Below are positions 3,652 to 46,507 of a stretch of 64,000 nucleotides of DNA, one piece after another. The notes below the pieces were generated by a model. That model made no database searches. It saw nothing but the letters and a program-made list of their open reading frames with translations, and was not told where the DNA came from. The stretch covers positions 124,001 to 188,000 of the forward strand of contig CAJIZF010000002.1 of assembly GCA_905181835.1 (NCBI GenBank), written 5' to 3'. The stretch's first letter is position 1; each line of letters starts with the position of its first letter. A program made the position numbers and the translations under genes. Origin of the DNA: an uncultured Flavobacteriaceae bacterium. Its GTDB lineage: Bacteria > Bacteroidota > Bacteroidia > Flavobacteriales > Flavobacteriaceae.

Positions 3652-3674
3652 TGAAATATTTTATTAAAATTTCA
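3652..3674. terminator. Weak hairpin between convergent genes
   Basis: TGAAATATTTT (3652-3662) pairs with AAAATTTCA (3666-3674) with one bulged base. It sits between the 3' ends of the small membrane protein and esterase genes and overlaps the esterase stop region. It is AT-rich, so it may be weak. Confidence 0.35.
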
Positions 3675-4803
3675 TAATTTTTTTAGTAATCATACCTTTT
3701 GAAGTTCTTATACTCAAAAAATAAATACCAGAACTTATATCTGACAGATCTATACTTTCGTTAGATAGATTTATTTTAATAGTTTTTCCTAATGCATTGT
3801 ATAATGTAATTTCAAAAAATTCAAATTGATTATTTGATTCTATATGTATTAATCCATTAGTAGGGTTAGGAAAAATATGAATATTTTTTTCTAAAAAACT
3901 ATAACTACTACTTGAAAGTATGTCATCTATATACTTTTGAAAAAATAACCACGCCTCTTCTCCAGCATTAATATCCATGTTGCCCCAAGCTCCGGGCCAA
4001 TCGTGACCTCCTCCAATTATTTCATAATACCAAACTTCATTATTATTGATTCCATTAAGATGTTTTTCACTGACTACATAACTTCCATCTGAAGGGTCTA
4101 TATCAGGCAGTGTTTCTGTTTGTAATGTTGAGCACTCATTTTTTTCTGAAAAATAATTAATTGTAAACGGAATACTTGGATATGCTCCCCATCCATCGTT
4201 ATTATTAGGATCTCCTGAAATTGGAGTCACATCATCTTGCGAGCCATGAATTTCAAATAGGGGAATTGGATTGCTGTCTTGGCAATCGTCTAAAATATCC
4301 TGTAATATCATACCTGCAACTGGAGCTACAGCCTTGAAAGTATCGTTTGCTTGGCAAGCTAACATATAACACATTTCTCCTCCATTAGACATTCCTGTTG
4401 CAAAGGTAAAATCTGGATTTAAACCGTAATTATTTTGTAAATAAGTTGCTAGTTCAGTTAAAAAACCCACATCGTTAACAGTTTCATCTTCGTGAAATGC
4501 ATAACCAACATTCCAAAAACGATTGCCATCTGAATCTGTAGTTCCTCTTGGATAACAAACAGCAAAACCGTATTGATCCGCAATTTGATTCATACCTGAA
4601 TAATTTTTTATACCACTAGCATCTCCAGTAAAACCGTGCATAACAAAAACGAGTGGTTTTTGCTCATCCAACTCTAATGGCTCGTAGTATATATATTGAC
4701 GATTAATCCCCTCATGTTCAAACTGGATATACTGTGCATTTACTGTAAGGTTAAAACTTATTAGAGTTAGAAAAAAAATTAGAATAGTACACTTACCGAT
4801 CAT
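3664..4803 (-). CDS. Secreted alpha/beta-hydrolase esterase with T9SS sorting domain
   Basis: Extracellular esterase of the PHB-depolymerase/feruloyl-esterase type (LpqC-like). It has a signal peptide (about 1-23, ending VNAQ), the oxyanion segment FVMHGFTGD (53-61), the nucleophile Ser139 in GMSNGG, an Asp in HGSQDDVTP and the His of GGGHDWPG. Residues from about 300 to 379 form a type A T9SS sorting domain (IFPNPTNG start, ending ISSGIYFLSIRTSKG), so it should be exported by the gliding-associated secretion system. It is the last gene of the putative metal-uptake operon, 22 bp after DUF3050. Natural substrate is unknown; an ester-containing siderophore is one possibility. Confidence 0.85.
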   Translation of the reverse strand: MIGKCTILIFFLTLISFNLTVNAQYIQFEHEGINRQYIYYEPLELDEQKPLVFVMHGFTGDASGIKNYSGMNQIADQYGFAVCYPRGTTDSDGNRFWNVGYAFHEDETVNDVGFLTELATYLQNNYGLNPDFTFATGMSNGGEMCYMLACQANDTFKAVAPVAGMILQDILDDCQDSNPIPLFEIHGSQDDVTPISGDPNNNDGWGAYPSIPFTINYFSEKNECSTLQTETLPDIDPSDGSYVVSEKHLNGINNNEVWYYEIIGGGHDWPGAWGNMDINAGEEAWLFFQKYIDDILSSSSYSFLEKNIHIFPNPTNGLIHIESNNQFEFFEITLYNALGKTIKINLSNESIDLSDISSGIYFLSIRTSKGMITKKIMKF

Positions 4804-4825
4804 TATAAATTATTTTAATTAAGAA

Positions 4826-5593
4826 TTAGTTTTTTTTGATTATTTCACTTATGGCATCCCATAACAAGATTCTTTTTTCTAGTGATTTTTTAGCAACCGC
4901 TTGTGCTTCGTCCCATTTTTGAATATCGTTTCCACATAGTTCAGTAACCATTTTTAGAGATAGAGGTCCATGTTCATCACCATCTATTTCTATATGACGT
5001 TCAAGATAGTAAATCAATTTATTATATTTATTGTTTTTAGCATCTGCATTTTTTAAAATTTCAATAAACATATCTGGAATAAGATCTTCTCGGCCGAATG
5101 TAAAGGCAGCAGCTACTAGATGTACTTTTCCAGTTTCAATAATCGAAAAAGTATAGTTAATAAATTCAGCGATTCTATTATCAATATTAATTTGGTTAAG
5201 TGAATAAGTGAGTGATTTTCCTGATTTAATTAATTCAATTAATTTATATATTTCATTTGTATTCCCGTTCACTTGTTGCATTGCATCTAAATACATTTCG
5301 AAATGACTTTTCGGCTCCCCCAATTCGTTGATGTCACTTTCTTCACCATGTACAATTTCATTAATAAACCTTGATAAAGTTGCGTTTTTTGAAGGAAACC
5401 AAGGTGTTTGAACGGTCGTTAATTTCAATTGAAGATATTTTAAAAGAGACATAAAATCCCAAACCGCAAAGACATGATTCTCCATGAAAACTTTTATGTC
5501 TTCAACATTCTTCAGAGTTTTATACAGTTGATGCTTTTTTAGTTGATTTCTTAACGTAGAAACTTCTTTTTCTATTAGTTGCACTTTATTCAT
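4826..5593 (-). CDS. DUF3050 protein, heme-oxygenase-like fold, candidate di-metal oxidase
   Basis: I recognise the DUF3050 family, an all-helical heme-oxygenase-like family with no assigned reaction. Residues 79-82 read E-x2-H (NEIVHGEE), and residues 200-208 read H-x3-D-x3-H ([12 protein letters not shown]). That arrangement resembles the metal-ligand pattern of heme-oxygenase-like di-iron oxidases; E153, H158 and E169 lie between and could add ligands. No signal peptide, so cytoplasmic. It follows the TonB receptor gene by 49 bp and precedes the esterase by 22 bp, which ties it to the uptake operon. The family call is firm; the oxidase idea is inference. Confidence 0.8.
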
Positions 5594-5610
5594 TAATCTT
5601 TTTTCTGTGT

Positions 5611-5638
5611 TTTATAATTCTTCGATAATGATTATAAA
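5611..5638. repeat. 8-bp inverted repeat between the receptor and DUF3050 genes
   Basis: TTTATAAT (5611-5618) and ATTATAAA (5631-5638) are perfect inverted repeats separated by 12 bp. The inside and right arm include GATAATGATTAT. It could be an operator, a weak hairpin or chance in AT-rich DNA. Confidence 0.3.
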
Positions 5639-5642
5639 TATA

Positions 5643-8069
5643 TTAAAACTTTATTTCTAGGGTCATATAAAAATTTCTGTCAGGTGAAGGAATAATTCCC
5701 GGCCCTGGATAACCTGTTGCTCGTCTTGTAAAATAATAATTATTAGTCAGATTATTAACACCAGTTTCTAATTTAAATTGTTTGTAGGTATAGGATAAGG
5801 AAATATCTAAAACTTCATAGGCAGGTATTTGTCCTATAACACCACTTAAATTACCTTCTGTTGCATTCGTAGCATCTGTGAATTGTTCGGACAGATAGGT
5901 GTATTGTATGTTAGAAAGTAAATTTTTATAACCAAACTTAATTCCTGTTTTAAAGTTTAAATTGGGTACAAATTCAACGTTATTTCCCTCCACACCATTT
6001 ACTTGCGAGCTAGTGTATTTAGAATCAATTACCGAAATATTCGTAAAATAATTAAAACTGAAATCGTTGTCTTTAATAAAAATTTTATTTAGATTAAAAT
6101 CGATGAGTGATTCTATTCCATAAATAAAGGCATTACCTACATTACCACGTTCGCTTTTTACGCTTCCGTCAGAGAAGGCTTTTTGAACAAAACCAATACG
6201 GTCGTTATATACAAGCCCGAAAGCTCCTATATCGTAGGATATTTTACTTTTATAATTTCCTCTAAATCCTATATCTGAAGTAAATCCTTTTTCATCATCT
6301 ATATCTGGACTAATTGTAAAAGCCGGGTTAATAATACTAATATCAGCAAAAGTTACTGAGCGATAGTTTTGGGAGATGTTTCCATAAATTTCAGTATTCG
6401 TAAGAGGCTTATAACTAATTCCTATACCCAATAAAACAAATGTTCTTTTTCTTATTTCACTATCTAAAATAGTTTCGTTTAAAATTACATTCCCGGCTCC
6501 ATCGGTATTAATTAGTTTGTAATAACCATTACTCTCAGTTTTTATATGTTCGACTCTTAGACCTGGAGTGATCGATAATTTTTCGTTAATATATATTATA
6601 TTTTCTCCAAAACCACTAATGTTAAGGTTGGGGTAAGTATAATTGGATTGGTTTCTGTAATTAGGAAAGTCATCTAACTGAAAATCAAAATTAGCATCTG
6701 ATCCATTAGACCCCGGTCCTTGTTGACCTGTATTATTTGATTTGTAGAATTTAGATCCTATAAGTAAATTAGATTTTTTATTTGATATTTGGTATTGATG
6801 TAATATTCTTGCCTCAAAGCCATAATTATTAAAATCTCCTTTAATTAAATCCCTTTCATCTAAAGAGTCTACTTGGTCAACACGATTCGTTCTAAATCCT
6901 AAGGCATTCCTTGTTGCGTTTAATCCAAAGGCATTAATTGTTAAATTTGTTTTGCTTGAAAATTTATGAGAAAATTTTAGATTGTACAATAACCAATCAA
7001 TTGAAAACCAGTTTCTAGCTCGGTTACTCTGAAACGGGTTTTCTTCAAACATCTGATCATTTAAACCGCCTGCTTGTTGAGCTAGATATGAAAAATAGGT
7101 TATCTCTGCTTTTAGCGATGTAAGATCATTAAATTGATATCCTATATGTCCATAAGCATTTTTAGATTCAAATTCTGAATTTGGTCTAAAACCATTACCT
7201 CTCTTGTAGTTAAAAAAAGAATAATAACTCCACTTTTCTTTGCTACCACTTATACTGGTAAAATTTGTGTACAACCGGTTACTACCTAGCGTATTCCTGA
7301 CAACTACTTCAACAGGTTTATTAGGGTTTGGTGGCTTCATTATAAAATTTACTAGGCCTCCAAATTGCGTACCATATTGTAATGAAGCTGCACCTCTGAT
7401 AACTTGTATTTCCTTTAGAGCTTCTGAAGCTGGTGTATAATAACTCTCAGGGTATCCTAATACATCAGCACTAATGTCATATCCATTTTGACGGGTATTA
7501 AAATTAGAAGTACGGTTAGGGTCCAAACCCCTACCTCCAATATTTAGTTGCAATCCTGCATCATCATTTTGAAAAATATTTAATCCTGCTACTTGACTAA
7601 AAATTTGCCTTGCATTATTGGATGCAAGATTTGCCATTGATTGGTCTACTAAAACTACTTCTGTTTTTTTACCTGCATAAATAGAGGTTCCTTCTACGTC
7701 TTTTAAACGACTTAGTTCAAATACTTTTGCTTTTCTAGCCTTTATTTCAACTTCGTTTAATTGTTCTGACAATACTGACAAATTTTGATTAATTGAAACA
7801 TCTTCAGTTATTATAAGATCAAGTTCAGAAACTTCATAGTTAAGAGTATAAAATATTAAATGAAGCTCTTTTATTTTAGTTTCAAACTGGAAATATCCAT
7901 CTGAGTTAGATATTGCTAAAAGACCATAATCTCTATCGAAAATACTAACTTTATCGATTGGAAAATTTGTACTTGTGTCAGTTATTACACCCGTAATTTT
8001 ATTTTGAGAAACTAAGTTTAAACTTACAAAACTCAAAATACATAATAATTTAAAGTCCTTTAATTTCAT
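5643..8069 (-). CDS. TonB-dependent outer-membrane receptor, FecA-like
   Basis: Outer-membrane active-transport protein powered by TonB/ExbBD. Residues 1-22 are a signal peptide; about 23-100 form a carboxypeptidase-regulatory-like domain typical of Bacteroidota receptors; about 130-250 are the plug, with the FecA-group stretch RGAASLQYGTQFGG; the rest is a 22-stranded-type barrel ending in an aromatic beta-strand (FYMTLEIKF). The plug and C-terminus (RRATGYPGPG) resemble Fe(III)-dicitrate receptors of the FecA group. Its start overlaps the upstream HTTM gene by 20 bp, implying translational coupling. Ferric chelate uptake is likely; the exact ligand cannot be read from sequence. Confidence 0.88.
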   Translation of the reverse strand: MKLKDFKLLCILSFVSLNLVSQNKITGVITDTSTNFPIDKVSIFDRDYGLLAISNSDGYFQFETKIKELHLIFYTLNYEVSELDLIITEDVSINQNLSVLSEQLNEVEIKARKAKVFELSRLKDVEGTSIYAGKKTEVVLVDQSMANLASNNARQIFSQVAGLNIFQNDDAGLQLNIGGRGLDPNRTSNFNTRQNGYDISADVLGYPESYYTPASEALKEIQVIRGAASLQYGTQFGGLVNFIMKPPNPNKPVEVVVRNTLGSNRLYTNFTSISGSKEKWSYYSFFNYKRGNGFRPNSEFESKNAYGHIGYQFNDLTSLKAEITYFSYLAQQAGGLNDQMFEENPFQSNRARNWFSIDWLLYNLKFSHKFSSKTNLTINAFGLNATRNALGFRTNRVDQVDSLDERDLIKGDFNNYGFEARILHQYQISNKKSNLLIGSKFYKSNNTGQQGPGSNGSDANFDFQLDDFPNYRNQSNYTYPNLNISGFGENIIYINEKLSITPGLRVEHIKTESNGYYKLINTDGAGNVILNETILDSEIRKRTFVLLGIGISYKPLTNTEIYGNISQNYRSVTFADISIINPAFTISPDIDDEKGFTSDIGFRGNYKSKISYDIGAFGLVYNDRIGFVQKAFSDGSVKSERGNVGNAFIYGIESLIDFNLNKIFIKDNDFSFNYFTNISVIDSKYTSSQVNGVEGNNVEFVPNLNFKTGIKFGYKNLLSNIQYTYLSEQFTDATNATEGNLSGVIGQIPAYEVLDISLSYTYKQFKLETGVNNLTNNYYFTRRATGYPGPGIIPSPDRNFYMTLEIKF

Positions 8070-9417
8070 CGTTTAGTGGTAGTATCCAATTTTTGTGTTT
8101 CCAGGATTCTTTTTCTTTATATAAATCTATACTTTTATCAATAAAAGGCTGACTTAATCTTCCATTTAGAGCTACATAGCTCTCTGCAAATACTTGAATG
8201 TTTTTGTGACCCTGTTTTTTAAAATGGTCCCCTAAATAATGAGCATATTCTAAAATAAAATCTGGCTGAAAGCTCATTTGTTTTTCTTGTAGAGGAGTTA
8301 AAAAATCTTGGTTATCTACATAAAAATAATTATTTGTCTCTGCGTTTACTATCTTGAAGTTAGTATATCCCATCTTTTCAATAAGCATTACCCTCCAGGA
8401 AAATCGGTACCCTTCTTCTGTCCAGAATAGTTCTCCAGGATAAGTTAGGTATCTAAATGGGAATAAAAGTTGGACACTTAAAAATAAAAAAACAATAGTT
8501 AATGAAATTTTTCTGTTTAATAATGGATATACCTCATTAATTAATATTTCATTTTTTAACTTTAATAAACGATTGATTCTTTTTCTCAGAAACGAAATAA
8601 TTTTTTTGTGGAAATTTGAATCAAAGAAAATTAGAGTTGAAATAATCATCACATATGGAAACATGCCTATAGGGAACAGGACTCTGGTAAACACATGAAA
8701 AAATACCACTAAAATAAAAGCGAAAATTCTAGTTCTTTTATAGAACAATAAAAAAGGAATTAATAAATCGTAAAACATTCCCGACCAACTCATAGCGTAA
8801 TGAAACCAATTTTGTTGCATCAAATTTTCCCCTAAAAAAGGTAAATCGTATTTTGAAGGTAACCAAATCTTTAGTGGCATGGCTTTCAACAACCAATCAG
8901 AATTTATTTTTGCTAACCCAGCATATAAATACACAATAGTCAACATGATTTTTATAGTATCGATAGTCCAATTTGGAACTAATTTATACGATTTTTTTAG
9001 TAGATAGGAATCTAAAGAAAATGAAGCATTTAAGGGTAAAAAAATCATTAGAAAGCTCATCATACTTATGAAATAATAATGATTCAAATAAATCGTCTTA
9101 TCCATTAATTCTATATAAGTAAAACTTAAAAAAAAGGTAATGATTGCAATCCGATATTTAAAACCCAAGGCGATAAAAATTGTAGCTAAACAACAAATAA
9201 TAAATAAAATATAGGTAAAATTACCTAGTGGTTTTACCCATTCAAAACCAAAATAAGAAAAATGAAAATTGGGTTGTATATAGATTGTTTCAATCCAACC
9301 TTTTATCCAGAAACGAATGATGCCGTAACACATCATGATTCCAAATCCAATCCTAAAAATAACTAGGGGAGAAACATCTGTAGTTTTATTTAAATATGTA
9401 TTTAGATTTTTTGCCAT
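8050..9417 (-). CDS. HTTM-domain membrane protein, vitamin K-dependent gamma-carboxylase homologue
   Basis: Integral membrane protein of 455 residues with about eight hydrophobic segments and a soluble C-terminal domain after about residue 330. YAGLAKINSDW (165-175) lines up with the stretch of animal gamma-glutamyl carboxylase that carries the catalytic-base lysine; Lys170 holds that position. LNHYYF (111-116), FFHVF and PIGMFPYVM also resemble carboxylase segments, as does the later GYRFSW. The animal enzyme carboxylates glutamate using reduced vitamin K; the bacterial role is unknown. It lies between imelysin (32 bp away) and the receptor (20-bp overlap). Homology is strong; retained carboxylase activity is inference. 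Confidence 0.85.
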   Translation of the reverse strand: MAKNLNTYLNKTTDVSPLVIFRIGFGIMMCYGIIRFWIKGWIETIYIQPNFHFSYFGFEWVKPLGNFTYILFIICCLATIFIALGFKYRIAIITFFLSFTYIELMDKTIYLNHYYFISMMSFLMIFLPLNASFSLDSYLLKKSYKLVPNWTIDTIKIMLTIVYLYAGLAKINSDWLLKAMPLKIWLPSKYDLPFLGENLMQQNWFHYAMSWSGMFYDLLIPFLLFYKRTRIFAFILVVFFHVFTRVLFPIGMFPYVMIISTLIFFDSNFHKKIISFLRKRINRLLKLKNEILINEVYPLLNRKISLTIVFLFLSVQLLFPFRYLTYPGELFWTEEGYRFSWRVMLIEKMGYTNFKIVNAETNNYFYVDNQDFLTPLQEKQMSFQPDFILEYAHYLGDHFKKQGHKNIQVFAESYVALNGRLSQPFIDKSIDLYKEKESWKHKNWILPLNDEIKGL

Positions 9418-9449
9418 GAAAAGATCGGCTAAAATACAATCTTTATTTA

Positions 9450-10556
9450 TTAATCTCCATCTGCATCTACATAATCAACACTAATATTGAATGCTTGAAG
9501 CATGTCTACTTTGATTAATACAACCACTGTTTGTAATGCATCATACGCTTGAGTCATTTTTGTGTTGTCGTTATTAATTTGGTCAAAATAATTATCATCT
9601 AGAATAGAAATTTTAGCTCTAGCTTCATCTAATTGATTATTAATTAGGTTGACTAAGTCATTCCTATCCAAATAATTGAGATAATCTTTAAAACCTACTC
9701 CGCTATCATTAGTATTATAATGCGTTCCATTAAATAAATTTTGAAAAGCATTTAAGGCCTCTAGAGTAAGGTCTTTTGAAGTTTCTCTAACATAATATCC
9801 TTCTACAGTGTGAGGTAATGGGGTTGAAGAAAAATTTCCTGCTGGGATTCCTATTTTATTTGCTCTTAGTCCTTTTTCAAAATAATAAATGAAATCATTT
9901 ACAAATTTATTTACTGCGCTTGATGCTGAATTTTCCGTACTAGCAATAAATTCATCTCGATAAGCGGTGGTCCAGTCATTCAATACAATTTCAGTAATGC
10001 TTTTCATTTGGTCGATAAGTGATGACACATAATTTTTATGATTTTGTCCATAATCTTGATTATTATAGGTGTCTAATATCTCTGCATCGTTATCACCTAT
10101 GCCATAAAGCATATAGTCTAATGCAGGAAAACCTGCTGCATCATTATTGTTAGGATTAAATAGATCAGCATTACCAGTGGTTATATTATCTTGAATCTCA
10201 TCGGTATTTGTTGGGTAGACATTCATTTGGTAATGATAAAAATTCTCTTCAGCTTTACCAATATTAAACATTTCTAATGATTGCCAAACCATGTACGATT
10301 CTAAAAAATTGTTTCTAAGAACTTCTAAGTTTTCTTGATTAGAATTTGCAATAAAATTTTCTTTTGCAGACACCAATAAACCTAGTTGTTGACTTAGGTC
10401 TTGATAGGCAGGAATGATAATATTATCTGCTAGATTAGTTTGCAAGCTTCCCCTATCAAAACTTTCATTTTGGCTGTTATCCAAATCATCACCTTCGGAG
10501 CAGGCAAACATGAATCCAATTGAAAATGTTATTGATAAAATAATTTTTTTAAACAT
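9450..10556 (-). CDS. Imelysin-family lipoprotein (M75-like)
   Basis: Imelysin/EfeO-type all-helical protein of 368 residues, a family linked to periplasmic or surface iron acquisition. The N-terminus is a lipoprotein signal with Cys19 (FMFAC), followed by the acidic SEGDD stretch of the kind that exports lipoproteins to the cell surface in flavobacteria. The family segment FPALDYMLYG is clear, and an H-x2-E motif occurs at 249-252 (HTVE). It follows DUF4856 after 90 bp and precedes HTTM by 32 bp. No protease activity has to be assumed: most members look like binding proteins. Confidence 0.9.
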   Translation of the reverse strand: MFKKIILSITFSIGFMFACSEGDDLDNSQNESFDRGSLQTNLADNIIIPAYQDLSQQLGLLVSAKENFIANSNQENLEVLRNNFLESYMVWQSLEMFNIGKAEENFYHYQMNVYPTNTDEIQDNITTGNADLFNPNNNDAAGFPALDYMLYGIGDNDAEILDTYNNQDYGQNHKNYVSSLIDQMKSITEIVLNDWTTAYRDEFIASTENSASSAVNKFVNDFIYYFEKGLRANKIGIPAGNFSSTPLPHTVEGYYVRETSKDLTLEALNAFQNLFNGTHYNTNDSGVGFKDYLNYLDRNDLVNLINNQLDEARAKISILDDNYFDQINNDNTKMTQAYDALQTVVVLIKVDMLQAFNISVDYVDADGD

Positions 10557-10587
10557 AGCACTTTATTTTTTTTGCAAAAATAAGAAT

Positions 10588-10621
10588 GTAGTTGCCATAT
10601 AAAAATTAATATGACAACTAC
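10588..10621 (-). promoter_or_regulatory. Intercistronic stem-loop between DUF4856 and imelysin genes
   Basis: On the transcribed (minus) strand, bases 10621-10609 and 10600-10588 form a 13-bp stem with one G-U pair and an 8-nt loop. No T run follows directly, so it looks more like a processing, stabilising or attenuating element than a full terminator. A TATTTTTG box (10582-10575) lies just downstream, but I see no -33 element at the right distance. Confidence 0.5.
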
Positions 10622-10646
10622 TTTTTGATTAATTCATTAAACAATT

Positions 10647-11867
10647 TTAGTTGGCTGCTTGGTCTACTGTAAATCCGAATTCAGCAGCAATATCTTCGGA
10701 CATTTGATCGAGTGTTTCTGCAGTTACATCCCAAAAACCATCACCTTCCATAAGTGTGTTTATATAACCATCTACCATAGATTTTGATACATAAGGAGCA
10801 TCTGTCATTGGATTTCTTGTAAATTGAAGACTGTATATAAAACCAAAACCTTCCGATAAATCATGAAAAGCACTTGGTAAATCTTCATTTGCAATTTCAC
10901 TCTTTCCACCTTGTAAATAATATACTGCTCTAATTCCAATTATCATTGAAATTTTTTCTCTTAAAATTTCTACTTGCTCGTCACGAACAGTATAGTTTTT
11001 AGCAACAATAGCTGCTCTTCCTAATTTAAAAGCATTATAAATATCATCGGCTATTCCAGCAAAATCCGAATCACCTTCAACTTTATCTAAGTACTTGTTT
11101 AAAAAGCTATCTACACCTAATACTGGTGAAGTTTCATCTTCTTCAGCACCATATAAATATCCAAAAGCTTCATCCCATTTGTGTTCCATAGTGGTATAAT
11201 CTTTACCATCAACTAAAACATCATTGTCATTATTAGTTACATTATCACCTGCATCGAGTACAGCAGAACTTAAGTAATTGTTACATATTTGATCAGCTAG
11301 AAATGCACCATTTAATGATTTTGCAAATGCTTGGTTGTATTCTAATCCTTTTTCGTTAACATAGCGAATAGATCCACCTAATTCTTGGGCTAAACCAGCA
11401 TTTCCAGGGCTTGCTGTATTTTCCCAATTAGGGAATACATCATTAACCTGAGAGGAAATCCAGCTATCAAAATCTGCTTTAATTGCATTAGCATCCGTTG
11501 AATTTGAAGAGAAATAATCCGCAGATCCAGCTGTTTTACTCCTTACATTTTTTGAAGAAGCATTTAATTCTAGCATATCTGGATCGCTAAAATCTTGATC
11601 GCCTTCGACGTGAGCAAACATTGCATCTAAGCTTACTTCATCGCGTGTTTCGTCTTTAAGAGCAGAAATTAACTCTTCTGCCATTGCTATACGTTGAGAT
11701 TGACCTGAATAGCTTACTGTGTTTTCTCCGTTTCTAGTAAATAGATAAGTAGCAGGAGCATCAACATTTTGGTTGTTGTTGTTGTTGTTACCGTTGTTAT
11801 TATCATCGTCACTTGAGCATGATATTAATACCAAAGCTGATATTAATATTGTAAATAATTTTTTCAT
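10647..11867 (-). CDS. DUF4856 lipoprotein
   Basis: I recognise the DUF4856 family, a Bacteroidota lipoprotein family often seen beside imelysin and TonB-receptor genes and of unknown mechanism. The signal ends at Cys17 (LVLISC), followed by SSDDD, an acidic signature compatible with surface export, and then an Asn-rich tract (residues 23-34) acting as a flexible tether. The remaining roughly 370 residues look soluble and helical, rich in Asp, Glu, Ala and Asn, without obvious enzymatic motifs. It is the promoter-proximal gene of the operon, so it is probably abundant. A role in metal or metal-chelate capture is inferred from its neighbours only. Confidence 0.85.
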   Translation of the reverse strand: MKKLFTILISALVLISCSSDDDNNNGNNNNNNQNVDAPATYLFTRNGENTVSYSGQSQRIAMAEELISALKDETRDEVSLDAMFAHVEGDQDFSDPDMLELNASSKNVRSKTAGSADYFSSNSTDANAIKADFDSWISSQVNDVFPNWENTASPGNAGLAQELGGSIRYVNEKGLEYNQAFAKSLNGAFLADQICNNYLSSAVLDAGDNVTNNDNDVLVDGKDYTTMEHKWDEAFGYLYGAEEDETSPVLGVDSFLNKYLDKVEGDSDFAGIADDIYNAFKLGRAAIVAKNYTVRDEQVEILREKISMIIGIRAVYYLQGGKSEIANEDLPSAFHDLSEGFGFIYSLQFTRNPMTDAPYVSKSMVDGYINTLMEGDGFWDVTAETLDQMSEDIAAEFGFTVDQAAN

Positions 11868-11906
11868 TTTATTTTATTTTTATTTAGACTTATTATAAAT
11901 ACTGAG

Positions 11907-11938
11907 CAAATATATAATAGAAAATTATAAATGCAAAA
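11907..11938 (-). promoter_or_regulatory. Flavobacterial promoter of the uptake operon
   Basis: On the minus strand, TTTTG (11938-11934), a 19-bp spacer and TATATTTG (11914-11907) match the Bacteroidota pattern of a TTTG -33 element and a TAnnTTTG -7 element. The expected start near 11900 leaves a leader of about 30 nt before the DUF4856 ATG. Confidence 0.75.
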
Positions 11939-11939
11939 C

Positions 11940-11962
11940 TTATTTAGAATTAATCTTAATAA
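11940..11962. promoter_or_regulatory. Near-perfect palindrome abutting the -33 element (candidate operator)
   Basis: TTATTTAGA (11940-11948) and TCTTAATAA (11954-11962) are 9-bp inverted arms with a single mismatch around a 5-bp centre. The site ends one base from the -33 box. Size, symmetry and position fit a dimeric regulator such as a Fur-type metal repressor, which would suit the iron-uptake genes. The regulator's identity is inference. Confidence 0.5.
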
Positions 11963-12180: not shown

Positions 12181-13059
12181 TCAAAGGTTTTCGCAATAGT
12201 CAATCAATAATTCTTTGCTATATAATCCTTCATTATAGCAATATCTTCCTTCGAAGTTAAATCGGGGACATGCTCTGCAAAAGGAATTCCTTTTATATGA
12301 GTTATTGGACTCACGAATCATATTTAGGATAGCTGTGGGAAGTTCTTTTTCGTTTCGTTTAGGAGCTATGGGGCAATTTTTTAAAAAAGAATAAATTTCA
12401 GTCCCCGTAAATTTAAATACATTCATACTGACCCTAAAGTTACCTTCTGCATCCTCATAGTCATTGATTTTTTCTTTGGAAGGCTTTTCAATAATAGCTT
12501 CCAATTGAGAATTTTCATCGACTAAGGTCAATGCAAAGCGTTCTATTTTTTCCATCGGAAAGAGCAAAGCATCCCGATCATAATTGATAAAAGCGTTTGC
12601 GTCTTTACAGATTAACAATGCTTGCAATGCTGCTACCGAGTATAAATTATCGCTATTGCATACGGTAAATGCTTCATGTTGTAATTCTGGAAATTGCGTT
12701 AAGGCTTGAAACAGCGCATCTGCAGTTCCAAAAGGTTTGTCTCTTCCTTTAGGAATATACTGGATCGCATAGGATATAGACAGACCTCTAAAACTATTAT
12801 CTTTTAGTTGTTTACCATAATATTCTTTAAATAATGCTCCTTGCTCGCCAATCACAATAACTACTTTTTTATAACCTGCTTTTTCGGCGTTTAGTAACAG
12901 AAAATCTAAAATAGGTCGTTTAGCATTTCCAAATTCCAATAATGCTTTACTTCTGGTATTGGCATTTTTTAATTCTTCTTCCGAAAGATTTTTTGAAATC
13001 ATGGAATTTTTCATTCTGGAGGAAGCACCTCCTGCAAGTATGATTATGTTTTTATTCAT
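12181..13059 (-). CDS. Sugar nucleotidyltransferase (NTP-transferase domain), frameshifted near the 3' end
   Basis: Nucleotidyltransferase of the sugar-1-phosphate type: the N-terminal ILAGGASSRM (7-16) is the nucleotide-binding loop, and TVCNSDNLYS contains the acidic metal-binding position. The reading frame is normal to about residue 253. After that the encoded tail (Cys-rich, ending YCENL) is unlike the family, while the next frame reads IKGIPFAEHVPDL and runs on to a stop at 12204-12206. One extra base at about 12297-12300 explains this; the repaired protein would be 284 residues. Overlaps the GHMP kinase gene by 8 bp. It probably makes an NDP-sugar from the kinase product. Confidence 0.8.
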   Translation of the reverse strand: MNKNIIILAGGASSRMKNSMISKNLSEEELKNANTRSKALLEFGNAKRPILDFLLLNAEKAGYKKVVIVIGEQGALFKEYYGKQLKDNSFRGLSISYAIQYIPKGRDKPFGTADALFQALTQFPELQHEAFTVCNSDNLYSVAALQALLICKDANAFINYDRDALLFPMEKIERFALTLVDENSQLEAIIEKPSKEKINDYEDAEGNFRVSMNVFKFTGTEIYSFLKNCPIAPKRNEKELPTAILNMIRESNNSYKRNSFCRACPRFNFEGRYCYNEGLYSKELLIDYCENL

Positions 13060-14137
13060 TAAAAATTTTTGTTCCGGAAGTTACTTTAACCGAATAAGCA
13101 TCTTTTGCTCCAGCATTTTTGATCGCTTGACTAATTTTTATTTGTAAATGAACAGGAGCAAGGGCTACAATGCACCCGCCGCCGCCAGAACCAATAATTT
13201 TTGCACCATAGGCTCCTGCATTTAATGCGGCATCGATCATTGCATCTATTCTAGGAATTGTAATTTTTAAATTGTTTTTTAAAACCTGATGATGTTGACT
13301 CATTAAATCTCCAATAAACGAATAATTCAAAGTAGTTTTTTTTAATTCAATTAAAGCTTTCTGAGTAATTACATGATTTTGTATGGCTGCATAAAAATAA
13401 GGAACTAAGTCGTCTGGTAGTGAATTTTGATGAGTTTCAAAGTCTTTTAAAGTCGCTTTTTCTAAATTAAAAAAGGTATCAATTTTTTTTACAAAATCTA
13501 TCGCTTTTAAAGCATTACCTTTGATATTTCCCAATACTCCTAGGGTATCTTTTCCAATTCCAGATTCACCTAATACCAAACCATCAAGAGTTTTTCCTAT
13601 TATTTCGTATTTAAAATCAGCACCCGTTTTTAAGAAAATAAGATGACCGACACCAATGGTATATTGGTCCATCTTACCTCCTGGCGAACTATGTTCTAAA
13701 ACTTCTGCTTCGTAGGCTAATTGAGCAATAAACTCAGGTTGCAGCTGTTTTTTAGTGCCAAATGCTGTTAGTAAAAAATGAACCCAAACAACCACTAAGG
13801 CTGACGAACTAGAAACCCCTGCATTAATAGGAATGTTACCACTTATTTGAATATTATAACCGCTATCTATACAAACTCCGTGTCTTCTAACGACCCTTAA
13901 CGCAGCGGCAAAATGATCTCCTTTTTCAAGATCTTCGAACTTTTCGGATACTTCAATAATCCTTTCAGAATTAATATCTGGAAGCTTTATATATAATTTT
14001 TGATGCTTATTTGTTGCTGCTTTTAAATTAATAAAACGGCCTATAGAACAAGCAATAACCGGTAAACCTAAATAATCTTGGTGATCTCCAAACAAACAAA
14101 TTCTTGCAGGAGCTTTTATAAAAATAGACCAACTCAT
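13052..14137 (-). CDS. GHMP-family sugar kinase, galactokinase-like
   Basis: ATP-dependent kinase of 361 residues. GDHQDYLG near the N-terminus resembles the galactokinase signature; PINAGVSSSSALVV is the phosphate-binding GHMP motif; GAKIIGSGGGGC is motif 3 near the C-terminus. An upstream in-frame start at 14284 would add 49 residues that overlap the preceding gene and look non-homologous, so I chose the ATG at 14137 (MSWSIF), four bases after the upstream stop. It sits between a GH109-like enzyme and a nucleotidyltransferase, consistent with phosphorylating a released sugar at C1. Substrate is not certain: galactose, GalNAc or a heptose are alternatives. Confidence 0.82.
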   Translation of the reverse strand: MSWSIFIKAPARICLFGDHQDYLGLPVIACSIGRFINLKAATNKHQKLYIKLPDINSERIIEVSEKFEDLEKGDHFAAALRVVRRHGVCIDSGYNIQISGNIPINAGVSSSSALVVVWVHFLLTAFGTKKQLQPEFIAQLAYEAEVLEHSSPGGKMDQYTIGVGHLIFLKTGADFKYEIIGKTLDGLVLGESGIGKDTLGVLGNIKGNALKAIDFVKKIDTFFNLEKATLKDFETHQNSLPDDLVPYFYAAIQNHVITQKALIELKKTTLNYSFIGDLMSQHHQVLKNNLKITIPRIDAMIDAALNAGAYGAKIIGSGGGGCIVALAPVHLQIKISQAIKNAGAKDAYSVKVTSGTKIFNE

Positions 14138-14141
14138 ACGT

Positions 14142-15497
14142 TTAGTAGGTATTTTTATTCCAATAATAAGGTTTTCTTTTAACCCAATCTCCTCGTGTAA
14201 AATCGGGAAAATCTTGAGGCTCTCCATTATTGGCAATTGATATTTCAGAAAGGGGAGTGATGGCACTCCAAGCAGCCGCATCATAAACGTCTAGGGGTGG
14301 TGCAATATTTTGTTTAGCGGACTCTATAAAAGCATTGATCACAAAAAAATCCATTCCGCCGTGACCTGTCCCCTCAGCGTGTTTGCCAAATCGTTTCCAA
14401 AGTGGATGATCATAGTGCTCGAGCCATGGGCTAGCATCATCCCAACGGTGTGATTTTTCTGTTTTACCCTCGATGTAGATGCGGTTGCCATCAACTTCCC
14501 AGAGACCTTCGCTACCTTGTACTCTAAAACCAAGTGAATAGGGACGTGGAGAGTTACAGTCGTGAGTAACAATAATAGTTTCCCCATTGGCAGTGTCAAT
14601 AGTTGAGGTGATAATATCGCCTTGTTTAAATGTTAGTTTAGCGTTGGGATGGTCTTTGCCGCCTACCTCTTTGATGTATTTGTTCAACCCAATTCCTTTG
14701 GTCGCGTGGGAGGTCATCGATACAAAACGGTTACCACGATTGATGTTACACATAGTCGCAACAGGACCTACGCCATGGGTTGGATACACATCGGCATTTC
14801 GCATCAACGAGTGTTGGGTTCGCCAAGCAGACTCTGAAATACCTTTTTCACCAAATTCAGCTCCTTTACCATAAGCAGTTTTACCATCGTTAAACTTTAC
14901 AAAACGCAAATCGTGTTGGTAACCACATCTAAAATGTAATAATTCTCCAAATATATTTTGTTTTACCATATTTAAAACAGCTAAAATATCTCTACGATAA
15001 CAGACATTTTCTAAGATCATTAAATGCGATCCTGTTTCTTCATGTACATTCACCAAATCCCAGCACTCTTCCATGGTATTGGCAGCAGAAACTTCCAATC
15101 CAGTAAATTTTCCTGCTTTCATTGCATCTTTAGCCATTTTGGTATGCCACAACCAAGGGGTCGAAATAATCACAGCATCCAATTCTTTTAGAGCTAGTAA
15201 ATTGCGATAGTCATAATCGTATTTCCCAAAAACTTTTGCTTTATTTTGTCCCTTTTTTGTAATTAAATCCTGAGCTATGGAAATTCTTTTTGAATCGATA
15301 TCACAGATTGCAGTTACTCGACAGTCATCTCTTAATAAAAGGTTATTTAAATGATTGATTCCTCGGAGGCCAACACCAATTAAGCCAATATTTAGTGTTT
15401 CCTTGATACTAGTACTCCCAAATGTTAATTGTGGAGCCAAAGCAATTCCCGCTCCTAGGGCTGCGGTTTGTTTAACAAAGTTTCTTCTTGAACTCAT
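14142..15497 (-). CDS. Tat-exported Gfo/Idh/MocA-fold protein, GH109-like (NAD-dependent glycosidase)
   Basis: A 451-residue protein with a twin-arginine signal (SSRRNFVKQTAALGAG) and an NAD-binding Rossmann motif (IGLIGVGLRG). The family pattern, including ENVCYRRD, YPTHGVGPVA and GTGHGGMDFF, resembles glycoside hydrolase family 109, in which tightly bound NAD supports hydrolysis of alpha-N-acetylgalactosaminides. Folded export to the periplasm by Tat fits a cofactor-containing enzyme. It is the first gene of a three-gene leftward cluster followed by a GHMP kinase four bases later. It could instead be another inositol- or sugar-dehydrogenase-like family member; I favour GH109. Confidence 0.78.
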   Translation of the reverse strand: MSSRRNFVKQTAALGAGIALAPQLTFGSTSIKETLNIGLIGVGLRGINHLNNLLLRDDCRVTAICDIDSKRISIAQDLITKKGQNKAKVFGKYDYDYRNLLALKELDAVIISTPWLWHTKMAKDAMKAGKFTGLEVSAANTMEECWDLVNVHEETGSHLMILENVCYRRDILAVLNMVKQNIFGELLHFRCGYQHDLRFVKFNDGKTAYGKGAEFGEKGISESAWRTQHSLMRNADVYPTHGVGPVATMCNINRGNRFVSMTSHATKGIGLNKYIKEVGGKDHPNAKLTFKQGDIITSTIDTANGETIIVTHDCNSPRPYSLGFRVQGSEGLWEVDGNRIYIEGKTEKSHRWDDASPWLEHYDHPLWKRFGKHAEGTGHGGMDFFVINAFIESAKQNIAPPLDVYDAAAWSAITPLSEISIANNGEPQDFPDFTRGDWVKRKPYYWNKNTY

Positions 15498-46039: not shown

Positions 46040-46507
46040 TTATGATTTGTCCTGTTTGGTTTCAGGATTTTTTTTATTTCCGTAAAAATAAAGTGAATGA
46101 TTAATGATATCTACATTAAAAACTTCTTCAATGGTTTTTTTAATAGATTGGATCCTAGGATCACAAAACTCTATTACTTCTCCATTAGATAAAATGAGAT
46201 GATCGTGTTGTTTATCAAAATAACATTTTTCGTAATGTGCTTGAGTTTGTCCAAATTGATGTTTTCTTACCAAACCACATTCTAAAAGTAATTCTATAGT
46301 GTTGTAGAGTGTGGCTCTACTTACTCGATAGTTTTTGTTCTTCATATTGATGTACAATGACTCAATATCAAAATGTTCTTCTAGATCGTATACCTCGTGA
46401 AGTATTGCATATCTCTCCGGTGTTTTTCTATGACCTTTTTCACCTAAAAAAGCCGTAAAGACATTCTTTACAATTACTTGATTATTTGGATTTACTTTTG
46501 TGCTCAT
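46040..46507 (-). CDS. Fur-family transcriptional regulator
   Basis: A 155-residue Fur-type repressor. The winged helix has [19 protein letters not shown]; the dimerisation domain has the [15 protein letters not shown] segment with its metal-binding His pair. The usual C-x2-C structural zinc pairs of Fur and Zur are missing: LSNG stands where CxxCG is expected, and no second pair is seen. A -7 box (TATTTTTG, 46522-46515) lies 7 bp from the ATG, implying a near-leaderless message. The metal or signal sensed is unknown. Confidence 0.88.

Follow-up and report, generated by a model that had tools for sequence, protein, structure and literature searches.

A four-gene operon found across Bacteroidota very likely serves iron acquisition and carries a relative of the vitamin K-dependent carboxylase

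Introduction

What look like the closest described relatives of the genes studied here are in Riemerella anatipestifer, where RAYM_09779, 09784, 09789 and 09794 encode a TonB receptor, a 'vitamin K-dependent gamma-carboxylase', an imelysin lipoprotein and a hypothetical protein, respectively (PMC5609570). These genes rise on iron restriction, with -Fe/+Fe values of 2.11-3.07 in Table 4 of that paper, which, to judge from the log2 threshold given there, are apparently on a log2 scale (PMC5609570). In the open-access literature surveyed, the available text of PMC5609570 was the only place where carboxylase, imelysin and receptor were found together. Here, we analyze a locus with genes of these kinds in a stretch of 64,000 nt (the window) from an uncultured Flavobacteriaceae bacterium (GenBank assembly GCA_905181835.1, contig CAJIZF010000002.1, positions 124,001 to 188,000). 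The locus encodes a DUF4856 lipoprotein, an imelysin, an HTTM protein homologous to the vitamin K-dependent carboxylase, a TonB-dependent receptor, a DUF3050 protein and an esterase, which an earlier note, made from the sequence alone, had read as one six-gene pathway for taking up a metal chelate. To our knowledge, the role of the bacterial relatives of the clotting-factor carboxylase is an open question. A carboxylase orthologue of Leptospira has reportedly been studied.

Imelysin-like proteins and receptors have been reported together elsewhere. Vesicles of Tenacibaculum maritimum are rich in a FecA homologue and the four imelysin-like lipoproteins associated with it (PMC10288586), and an MliR mutant of Bizionia argentinensis has lower levels of an imelysin-like gene and of a TonB receptor (PMC9478572); neither the accessions of the former nor the gene tags of the latter are tied to the present operon. 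The transcript of the same Bizionia receptor goes up with added ferric citrate, contrary to a simple Fur pattern (PMC9478572). Fig. 8 of Xu 2011 includes a Flavobacterium locus, FP1487 (PMC3143127). In Leptospira under iron limitation, an imelysin, a di-haem oxidoreductase and another imelysin are described with a TonB receptor nearby (PMC7567364, PMC13066512). Leptospira was rejected as a second phylum for the system, with vitamin K carboxylase terms absent from the available text of both papers and the HTTM term sought in the latter only.

Results

The six open reading frames (ORFs) are intact, lie on the minus strand at 3664-11867 and are transcribed in the order DUF4856, imelysin, HTTM, TonB receptor, DUF3050 and esterase, with intergenic gaps of 90, 32, -20, 49 and 22 bp. 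Families were assigned against Pfam cut-offs, and some also against NCBIfam equivalog cut-offs. All six matches exceed the Pfam cut-off, and the genes are where the earlier note had placed them, on one strand and with short gaps or an overlap (Table 1). They make up two units, which are a core of DUF4856, imelysin, HTTM and receptor, and the DUF3050 and esterase genes behind it.

The core was found in each sample of relatives. Among 60 genomes of the family, 21, including the present one, encode DUF4856 (a second, weak DUF4856 of genome G016, L048, was left out of this count). Imelysin adjoins DUF4856 and a receptor lies behind it in 20 of the 20 other loci, and in 17 of these HTTM stands between imelysin and receptor to give a contiguous four-gene core. 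Across the phylum, DUF4856 is present in 38 of 247 genomes; besides G000 (the present genome) and G001, this gave 36 loci found through DUF4856, and 31 of these have the four genes side by side. The five misses (L188, L199, L200, L201 and L203) have a divergent DUF4856, two of them near a contig end; L199 and L200 were counted as misses with a DUF4856 that the profile did not recognize. One further genus has DUF4856 in 24 of 58 genomes and the contiguous four in 20 of 23 new loci, the exceptions being L247, cut before the receptor, L238, which has no HTTM, and L245, with an FA_hydroxylase in the HTTM slot. A scan of named genomes with an HTTM alignment, which is biased to close kin and to HTTM, found the contiguous four in 71 of the best 80 of 581 relatives; of the nine exceptions, five are cut by contig ends, two have no recognized DUF4856 and two have FA_hydroxylase in the slot. 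One carrier of the core is Bizionia argentinensis JUB59, a marine isolate from the Antarctic (L072). With duplicates merged, the contiguous four are present in 134 of 145 loci with a distinct receptor sequence, a total that includes the biased set. The upstream, phylum-locus, residue and column counts leave out sequences containing X and upstream stretches that were short. The earlier note had named missing co-occurrence of the six families in relatives as what would refute it; by that standard the four-gene core holds and the six-gene set does not. The core is a real phylum-wide operon and very likely serves iron acquisition.

The Bacteroidota-type promoter motif is TTG-N19-TAnnTTTG, and a match to it, P1, precedes DUF4856. 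Fur boxes were scored against a 19-position consensus from Riemerella anatipestifer, with a threshold of at least 15/19 for relatives. Exactly two sites of at least 17/19 exist in the 64 kb, one on each side of P1, and there were none in any of 20 block-shuffled windows. One of them is the palindrome that the earlier note had seen adjoining its promoter. The operon thus has the Fur box at its promoter that is expected of a Fur-regulon member, and the window encodes a Fur-family regulator as a candidate repressor. A box of at least 15/19 was found upstream of DUF4856 in 94 of 96 loci compared to 17 of 288 shuffles. The upstream regions of control genes rarely had one (HMGCL, 1/58; guaB, 3/55; pyrD, 1/42; lysE, 0/29), and those of the other core genes had it in 2 of 101 (HTTM), 1 of 99 (receptor) and 20 of 96 (imelysin) cases. 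When a longer stretch was taken, 118 of 122 distinct DUF4856 upstreams had one box and 91 at least two, with the promoter between two boxes in 67 of the 122. In the phylum subset, one box was seen in 27 of 30 DUF4856 upstreams.

The gap between DUF4856 and imelysin showed further conserved signals. Among 119 distinct gaps, the median folding z was -4.2, and that of the window (10557-10646) was -4.0. TAnnTTTG occurred in 67 of the 119 gaps, compared to 9.2 in shuffles, mostly 20-40 bp ahead of imelysin, and a Fur box of at least 15/19 in 30, compared to 1.0 in shuffles. The gap between imelysin and HTTM had TAnnTTTG in 3 of 84 cases and a Fur box in 0 of 84. In the window's own DUF4856-imelysin gap there is a -7-like box alone, with no Fur box of at least 15/19. 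These patterns suggest that the gap holds a terminator and, behind it, a second promoter that is Fur-linked in some loci, which would account for the boxes upstream of imelysin in 20 of 96 loci. The one good promoter of the earlier note is thus present as P1, and a single transcript from it is doubtful because of the hairpin and the -7-like box in this 90-bp gap.

HTTM aligns to the human carboxylase GGCX over residues 4-448 (about 1e-41), and has both the HTTM and the lumenal domain together with the catalytic residues. With residue roles taken from PMC12589487, positions were compared in 126 HTTM sequences. K218, H160, N159, W223, G259, F286, H287, F294, F299 and M402 (GGCX numbering) are kept in 126 of 126, and K218 and H160 correspond to K170 and H113 of the window protein. 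The contacts to the gamma-carboxyglutamate (Gla) backbone are changed; N158 is replaced by L in all 126, K217 by A or T, and R436 by Q in 119 of 126. The propeptide-binding domain is incomplete, and most of it is absent because the alignment ends at human residue 505 of 758. Judged by these alignments, the enzyme core is retained, unlike the protein dock. With starts chosen mechanically, the HTTM gene runs into the receptor gene in 106 of 120 distinct loci, the shared stretch being 20 bp long in 46 of them and 23 bp long in 22.

In some lineages, the HTTM slot is occupied by an FA_hydroxylase (PF04116). This is the case at L045:10349-11299, and also at L143:6428-7405 and L148:6427-7404, where HTTM lies behind the receptor; at L041:11243-12190, an FA_hydroxylase is next but one behind the receptor on the opposite strand. 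The FA_hydroxylase weakly resembles the ornithine lipid hydroxylase OlsE (46 bits, cut-off 475). These few cases suggest, and do not prove, that HTTM and FA_hydroxylase exchange in the slot. Elsewhere in the genomes of L028, L041 and L045, HTTM is absent (G016), present as one match below cut-off (G002) or present once (G033). Separately, the present genome has two more HTTM proteins in other contexts, G000:C4:8963-9736 (L046) and G000:C4:720178-720951 (L047), and both retain the K218 and H160 equivalents.

The two lipoproteins were scored with a simple lipobox pattern and, as an acidic signal, at least 3 acidic residues in the next 8. DUF4856 has a lipobox in 105 of 124 sequences, of which 82 have the acidic signal, and imelysin in 105 of 129, of which 33 have it. 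Such stretches behind the lipid-anchored Cys are surface-export signals in Bacteroidota, with the consensus SDDFE in F. johnsoniae (PMC5080379). Since many of the lipoproteins carry an acidic stretch like the published signal, surface capture by both is plausible. The imelysin has an M75 domain (116.4 bits, cut-off 23.5) and lacks the GxHxxE motif, with GFPALD in the window protein; of 146 imelysins, 137 have P at the place of H and 142 have D at that of E. The C-terminal DxDxD is kept in at least 97% of the 146. The nearest solved relative is 3pf0 (4.3e-8), which we take to be the variant-motif protein of Xu 2011. An imelysin subfamily without the motif His has been described (Xu 2011, PMC3143127).

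The DUF4856 model is confident (predicted local distance difference test, pLDDT, 90.5) and mostly helical. Foldseek gave no match to the PDB at E<=0.001, and VIA-align 2 gave only middling rows among helical proteins, up to Z 6.5, so no fold was assigned. A relationship to algal FEA1 was considered and kept as a lead only, because 14 of 21 sequences matched NCBIfam FEA1_rel_lipo far under its cut-off (best 1.2e-8); a search of 198 phylum genomes found no member of that family, and no control matched it either. As side observations, the window imelysin terminates in DADGD (9450-9470), perhaps a metal-binding tail, and a tandem pair of DUF4856 genes heads the operon at L181 (genome G315).

The receptor has plug (PF07715) and barrel (PF00593) domains above cut-off and is thus a TonB-dependent receptor. 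The term FecA-like, used in the earlier note, fits loosely, since the protein misses the NCBIfam FecA equivalog cut-off widely (105.9 bits compared to 1100), although FecA is the only solved relative found (4e-14). Of 145 distinct loci, 11 have genes for a FutA/FbpA-like binding protein and a permease close to the receptor, in 9 cases on the same strand and in 2 on the opposite, and some with intervening genes. The binding protein of L239 matches solved Fe(III)-binding proteins at up to 2.6e-109; for the relatives at L143 and L028, NCBIfam names other substrates, all below cut-off. In 16 of 145 distinct loci, the core has a di-haem oxidoreductase gene nearby, accompanied by imelysins where inspected closely; at L075:14190-18030, an imelysin, a di-haem oxidoreductase and an imelysin on the opposite strand directly follow the receptor. 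Of 143 loci, 25 have a haem-binding-domain gene close to the core. In one locus, L226:5409-7804 (genome G378), the receptor is split into two ORFs of 430 and 356 aa by a frameshift, an assembly error or pseudogene formation.

In neither the 20 family loci nor the 36 phylum loci does DUF3050 or esterase follow the receptor; at L043, a DUF3050 gene lies upstream on the opposite strand. We also surveyed 19 genomes of the genus (18 besides the present one), of which 6 have DUF4856, one as a contig-end fragment (G069). The six-gene arrangement was found in the present genome and its sister G077 (the same record as the named locus L069). Congeners G060, G065 and G073 (L174-L176) have the core with neither gene behind the receptor. 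Their esterase orthologues, 71-72% identical, are on contigs other than that of the core, as is DUF3050 in G060 and G065; DUF3050 was not found in G073, whose assembly is about 83% complete. In G060, the DUF3050 and esterase genes are separated by a single ORF. With the core alone in these congeners and the esterase, and DUF3050 where found, on other contigs, the pair look like a recent 3' addition in one small lineage. On the family, genus and phylum surveys, we reject the conserved six-gene pathway of the earlier note, of which a four-gene version survives.

By its family match and its HxxxDxxxH motif, the DUF3050 protein belongs with the haem-oxygenase-like di-iron proteins, for which ligand roles of this motif have been predicted (PMC4520260). 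The esterase has an esterase domain, GxSxG and a C-terminal sorting domain, and falls just under the NCBIfam depolymerase equivalog cut-off (148.3 compared to 150). The next gene upstream of the operon, 313 bp away on the same strand, encodes an NTP transferase. It belongs to a run of mutually overlapping genes on that strand (12181-15497), the two others of which look like a sugar kinase and a Gfo/Idh-type oxidoreductase; the NTP transferase has Pfam support and the names of those two were assigned by eye.

Table 1. Positions of the operon, its signals and the candidate regulator within the window
Feature	Coordinates	Strand	Evidence
Fur box 1, immediately 5' of the -33 element	11942-11960	.	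17/19 to the Riemerella consensus of PMC5609570
Promoter P1, TTG-N19-TAnnTTTG	11907-11936	-	match to the Bacteroidota-type motif
Fur box 2, between P1 and DUF4856	11882-11900	.	17/19 to the Riemerella consensus
DUF4856 lipoprotein, 406 aa, core gene 1	10647-11867	-	Pfam 8.4e-148; N-terminus ...LISC-SSDDD
Terminator-like hairpin, genes 1/2	10588-10621	-	folding excess z<-2 in 101 of 119 distinct gaps
Possible -7 box of second promoter, TATTTTTG	10575-10582	-	TAnnTTTG; place read by eye
Imelysin-family lipoprotein, 368 aa, core gene 2	9450-10556	-	Peptidase_M75 2.4e-33
HTTM / vitamin-K-carboxylase homologue, 455 aa, core gene 3	8050-9417	-	HTTM 1.6e-74, VKGC_lumenal_dom 1e-60; 20-bp overlap with gene 4
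TonB-dependent receptor, 808 aa, core gene 4	5643-8069	-	plug and barrel with CarboxypepD_reg; E. coli FecA 4e-14
DUF3050 protein, lineage-specific addition	4826-5593	-	Pfam 2.5e-100; HxxxDxxxH at residues 200-208
PHB/feruloyl-esterase-like protein with type IX secretion system (T9SS) tail, lineage-specific addition	3664-4803	-	PHB esterase and Por_Secre_tail
Fur-family regulator, candidate repressor	46082-46441	-	PF01475 5.9e-25; G000:C2:170082-170441

Discussion

We consider it probable that DUF4856, imelysin, HTTM and receptor form a Fur-controlled ferric-iron or ferric-chelate acquisition system of Bacteroidota. The gene order, the Fur boxes, the hairpin and the retained catalytic residues are read from the sequences themselves. 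The iron-uptake reading of the earlier note holds for the four-gene core, where gene order, Fur boxes, the Riemerella response and the ferric importer near the receptor of some relatives agree with it, and fails for the six-gene pathway. From these data we infer the surface capture, the transport, the ligand and every function of HTTM in the following scheme. Iron shortage would release P1 from its two Fur boxes. The DUF4856 lipoprotein would be the first product, and the hairpin that follows its gene would probably lead to an excess of it, with imelysin, HTTM and receptor expressed by read-through, by the second promoter or by both. On the outer membrane, probably at the surface, the two lipoproteins would gather Fe(III) or its chelate and hand it over to the receptor for import with TonB energy. 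Transfer inward could then be by a FutA/FbpA-type binding protein and ABC importer, or by another route. As a menaquinol-using membrane enzyme whose base is K170, HTTM would act on a carboxylate-bearing substrate, either a partner protein or the chelate. DUF3050 and esterase, appended at the 3' end in this lineage, may act on the iron ligand or be passengers.

Several observations weigh against parts of this scheme. In PMC5609570, the iron response of the Riemerella genes stays in the fur mutant (2.70-3.07), the derepression with iron is modest (1.36-1.93 for RAYM_09779-09794), Table 5 names no Fur box for them, the gel shifts were done on other promoters and RAYM_09794, presumably DUF4856, is named as a hypothetical protein. 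Our shuffles of upstream regions preserve base composition only, and the Fur-box counts are not independent events because the loci are related. A ferric importer is near the core in no more than 11 of 145 loci. Two quinone-pocket residues of HTTM are changed in all 126 sequences (N290 to T and M401 to V), and the VKOR that would recycle the quinone epoxide was not found in the present genome, which is about 90% complete. HTTM is not indispensable, since it is missing from the slot in L028, L041, L045 and L238. We found no published transport or binding measurement for the four-gene system.

What HTTM does could be explained in different ways. That it is an active menaquinol-dependent carboxylase/oxygenase, modifying the iron-binding machinery or the chelate, is possible, and we offer it tentatively; an O2-dependent modification would then be a general part of the system, as FA_hydroxylase holds the same slot in some lineages. 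A narrower form of this idea, that HTTM makes gamma-carboxyglutamate on DUF4856, imelysin or receptor, which then bind metal, is unlikely. It agrees with the invariance of the catalytic base and of N159 and H160, which hold the carboxylate in GGCX (PMC12589487), and with the position of the gene amid candidate substrates and its overlap with the receptor gene, and it conflicts with the loss of most of the propeptide-binding domain and the changes of N158, K217 and R436. Furthermore, the conserved columns of DUF4856, imelysin and receptor showed no Glu-rich cluster to the eye, and a Gla-type substrate among the partners was rejected on this reading rather than on statistics. Another possible explanation is that HTTM modifies nothing, and either reduces Fe(III) with menaquinol or only helps to assemble the receptor. 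The largely kept quinone site beside a lost dock for protein substrates, the missing VKOR and the existence of systems that do without HTTM fit this explanation. We regard it as rather unlikely because N159 and H160, the holders of the substrate carboxylate in GGCX, are invariant, and because an O2-dependent FA_hydroxylase rather than a reductase fills the slot of L045.

The remaining alternatives concern the ligand and the extent of the system. Imelysins elsewhere bind other metals. The receptor could import a ligand such as haem or a copper chelate, with iron acting in control only, and the haem-binding-domain genes near the core would suit such a ligand; the FecA relationship and the Fe(III)-type ABC importers near the receptor point the other way and make this quite improbable. 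Least probable is that esterase and DUF3050 are the dedicated ligand-processing enzymes, outside and inside the cell, of one conserved six-gene system. Their common strand, their close spacing (49 and 22 bp), the matching arrangement in sister G077, their closeness in G060 as well and the retained HxxxDxxxH motif speak for it, and are outweighed by the absence of both from behind the receptor in the family and phylum loci and by their place off the core contig in G060 and G065.

The Fur-controlled ferric acquisition system that we favor would define an iron-acquisition system of many marine Bacteroidota, in which its genes are now annotated merely as DUFs, imelysin and HTTM. The interesting part of the core is what its vitamin-K-carboxylase relative does. 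Throughout the phylum, gene order, iron control and translational overlap link HTTM, with its catalytic residues intact, to a single outer-membrane receptor, and its role is therefore directly testable. If it is active on the iron machinery or chelate, bacterial homologues of the vitamin K carboxylase would have a physiological role in iron acquisition.

Neisseria TbpAB and FbpABC are a known arrangement in which a surface lipoprotein and a TonB receptor hand Fe(III) to a periplasmic binding protein, with transferrin as the substrate. The proposed core would work in a like way; the likeness is one of scheme, and homology of the lipoproteins is not claimed. The receptor's only solved relatives are FecA ferric dicitrate receptors, from which it differs in its low equivalog score and in the CarboxypepD_reg domain in front. 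Compared to human GGCX (PMC12589487), HTTM shares homology over 4-448, K218, H160, N159 and most of the quinone pocket, whereas it lacks the arch domain and most of the propeptide-binding domain, and N158, K217, R436, N290 and M401 are changed. CciT-CciO of Caulobacter (PMC12004943) is also a conserved operon of an iron-importing TonB receptor and an oxygenase of imprecisely known function, but CciO is a 2-oxoglutarate/Fe oxygenase rather than an HTTM protein, and the receptor is different. The imelysin/EfeB operons (EfeUOB, PA4370-4373, LruB; Xu 2011, PMC3143127) likewise have iron-regulated imelysin lipoproteins with outer-membrane uptake genes. However, they pair imelysin with a DUF1111 di-haem protein, which the present core does not have, and the imelysin here is without GxHxxE.

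The Riemerella genes are almost surely the same core, with the same kinds of protein, adjoining tags and induction by iron restriction, and with neither DUF3050 nor esterase in the available list (PMC5609570). In the available text they are not presented as a system or listed with a Fur box, and their order is deduced from the tags. The statement in the earlier note that no such complete pathway was known thus holds for the function, whereas for three of the four gene families an iron response had been published before. Beyond these systems, the phylum-wide core, the two-box promoter, the conserved hairpin with a likely second promoter and the occasional FA_hydroxylase in the HTTM slot are new.

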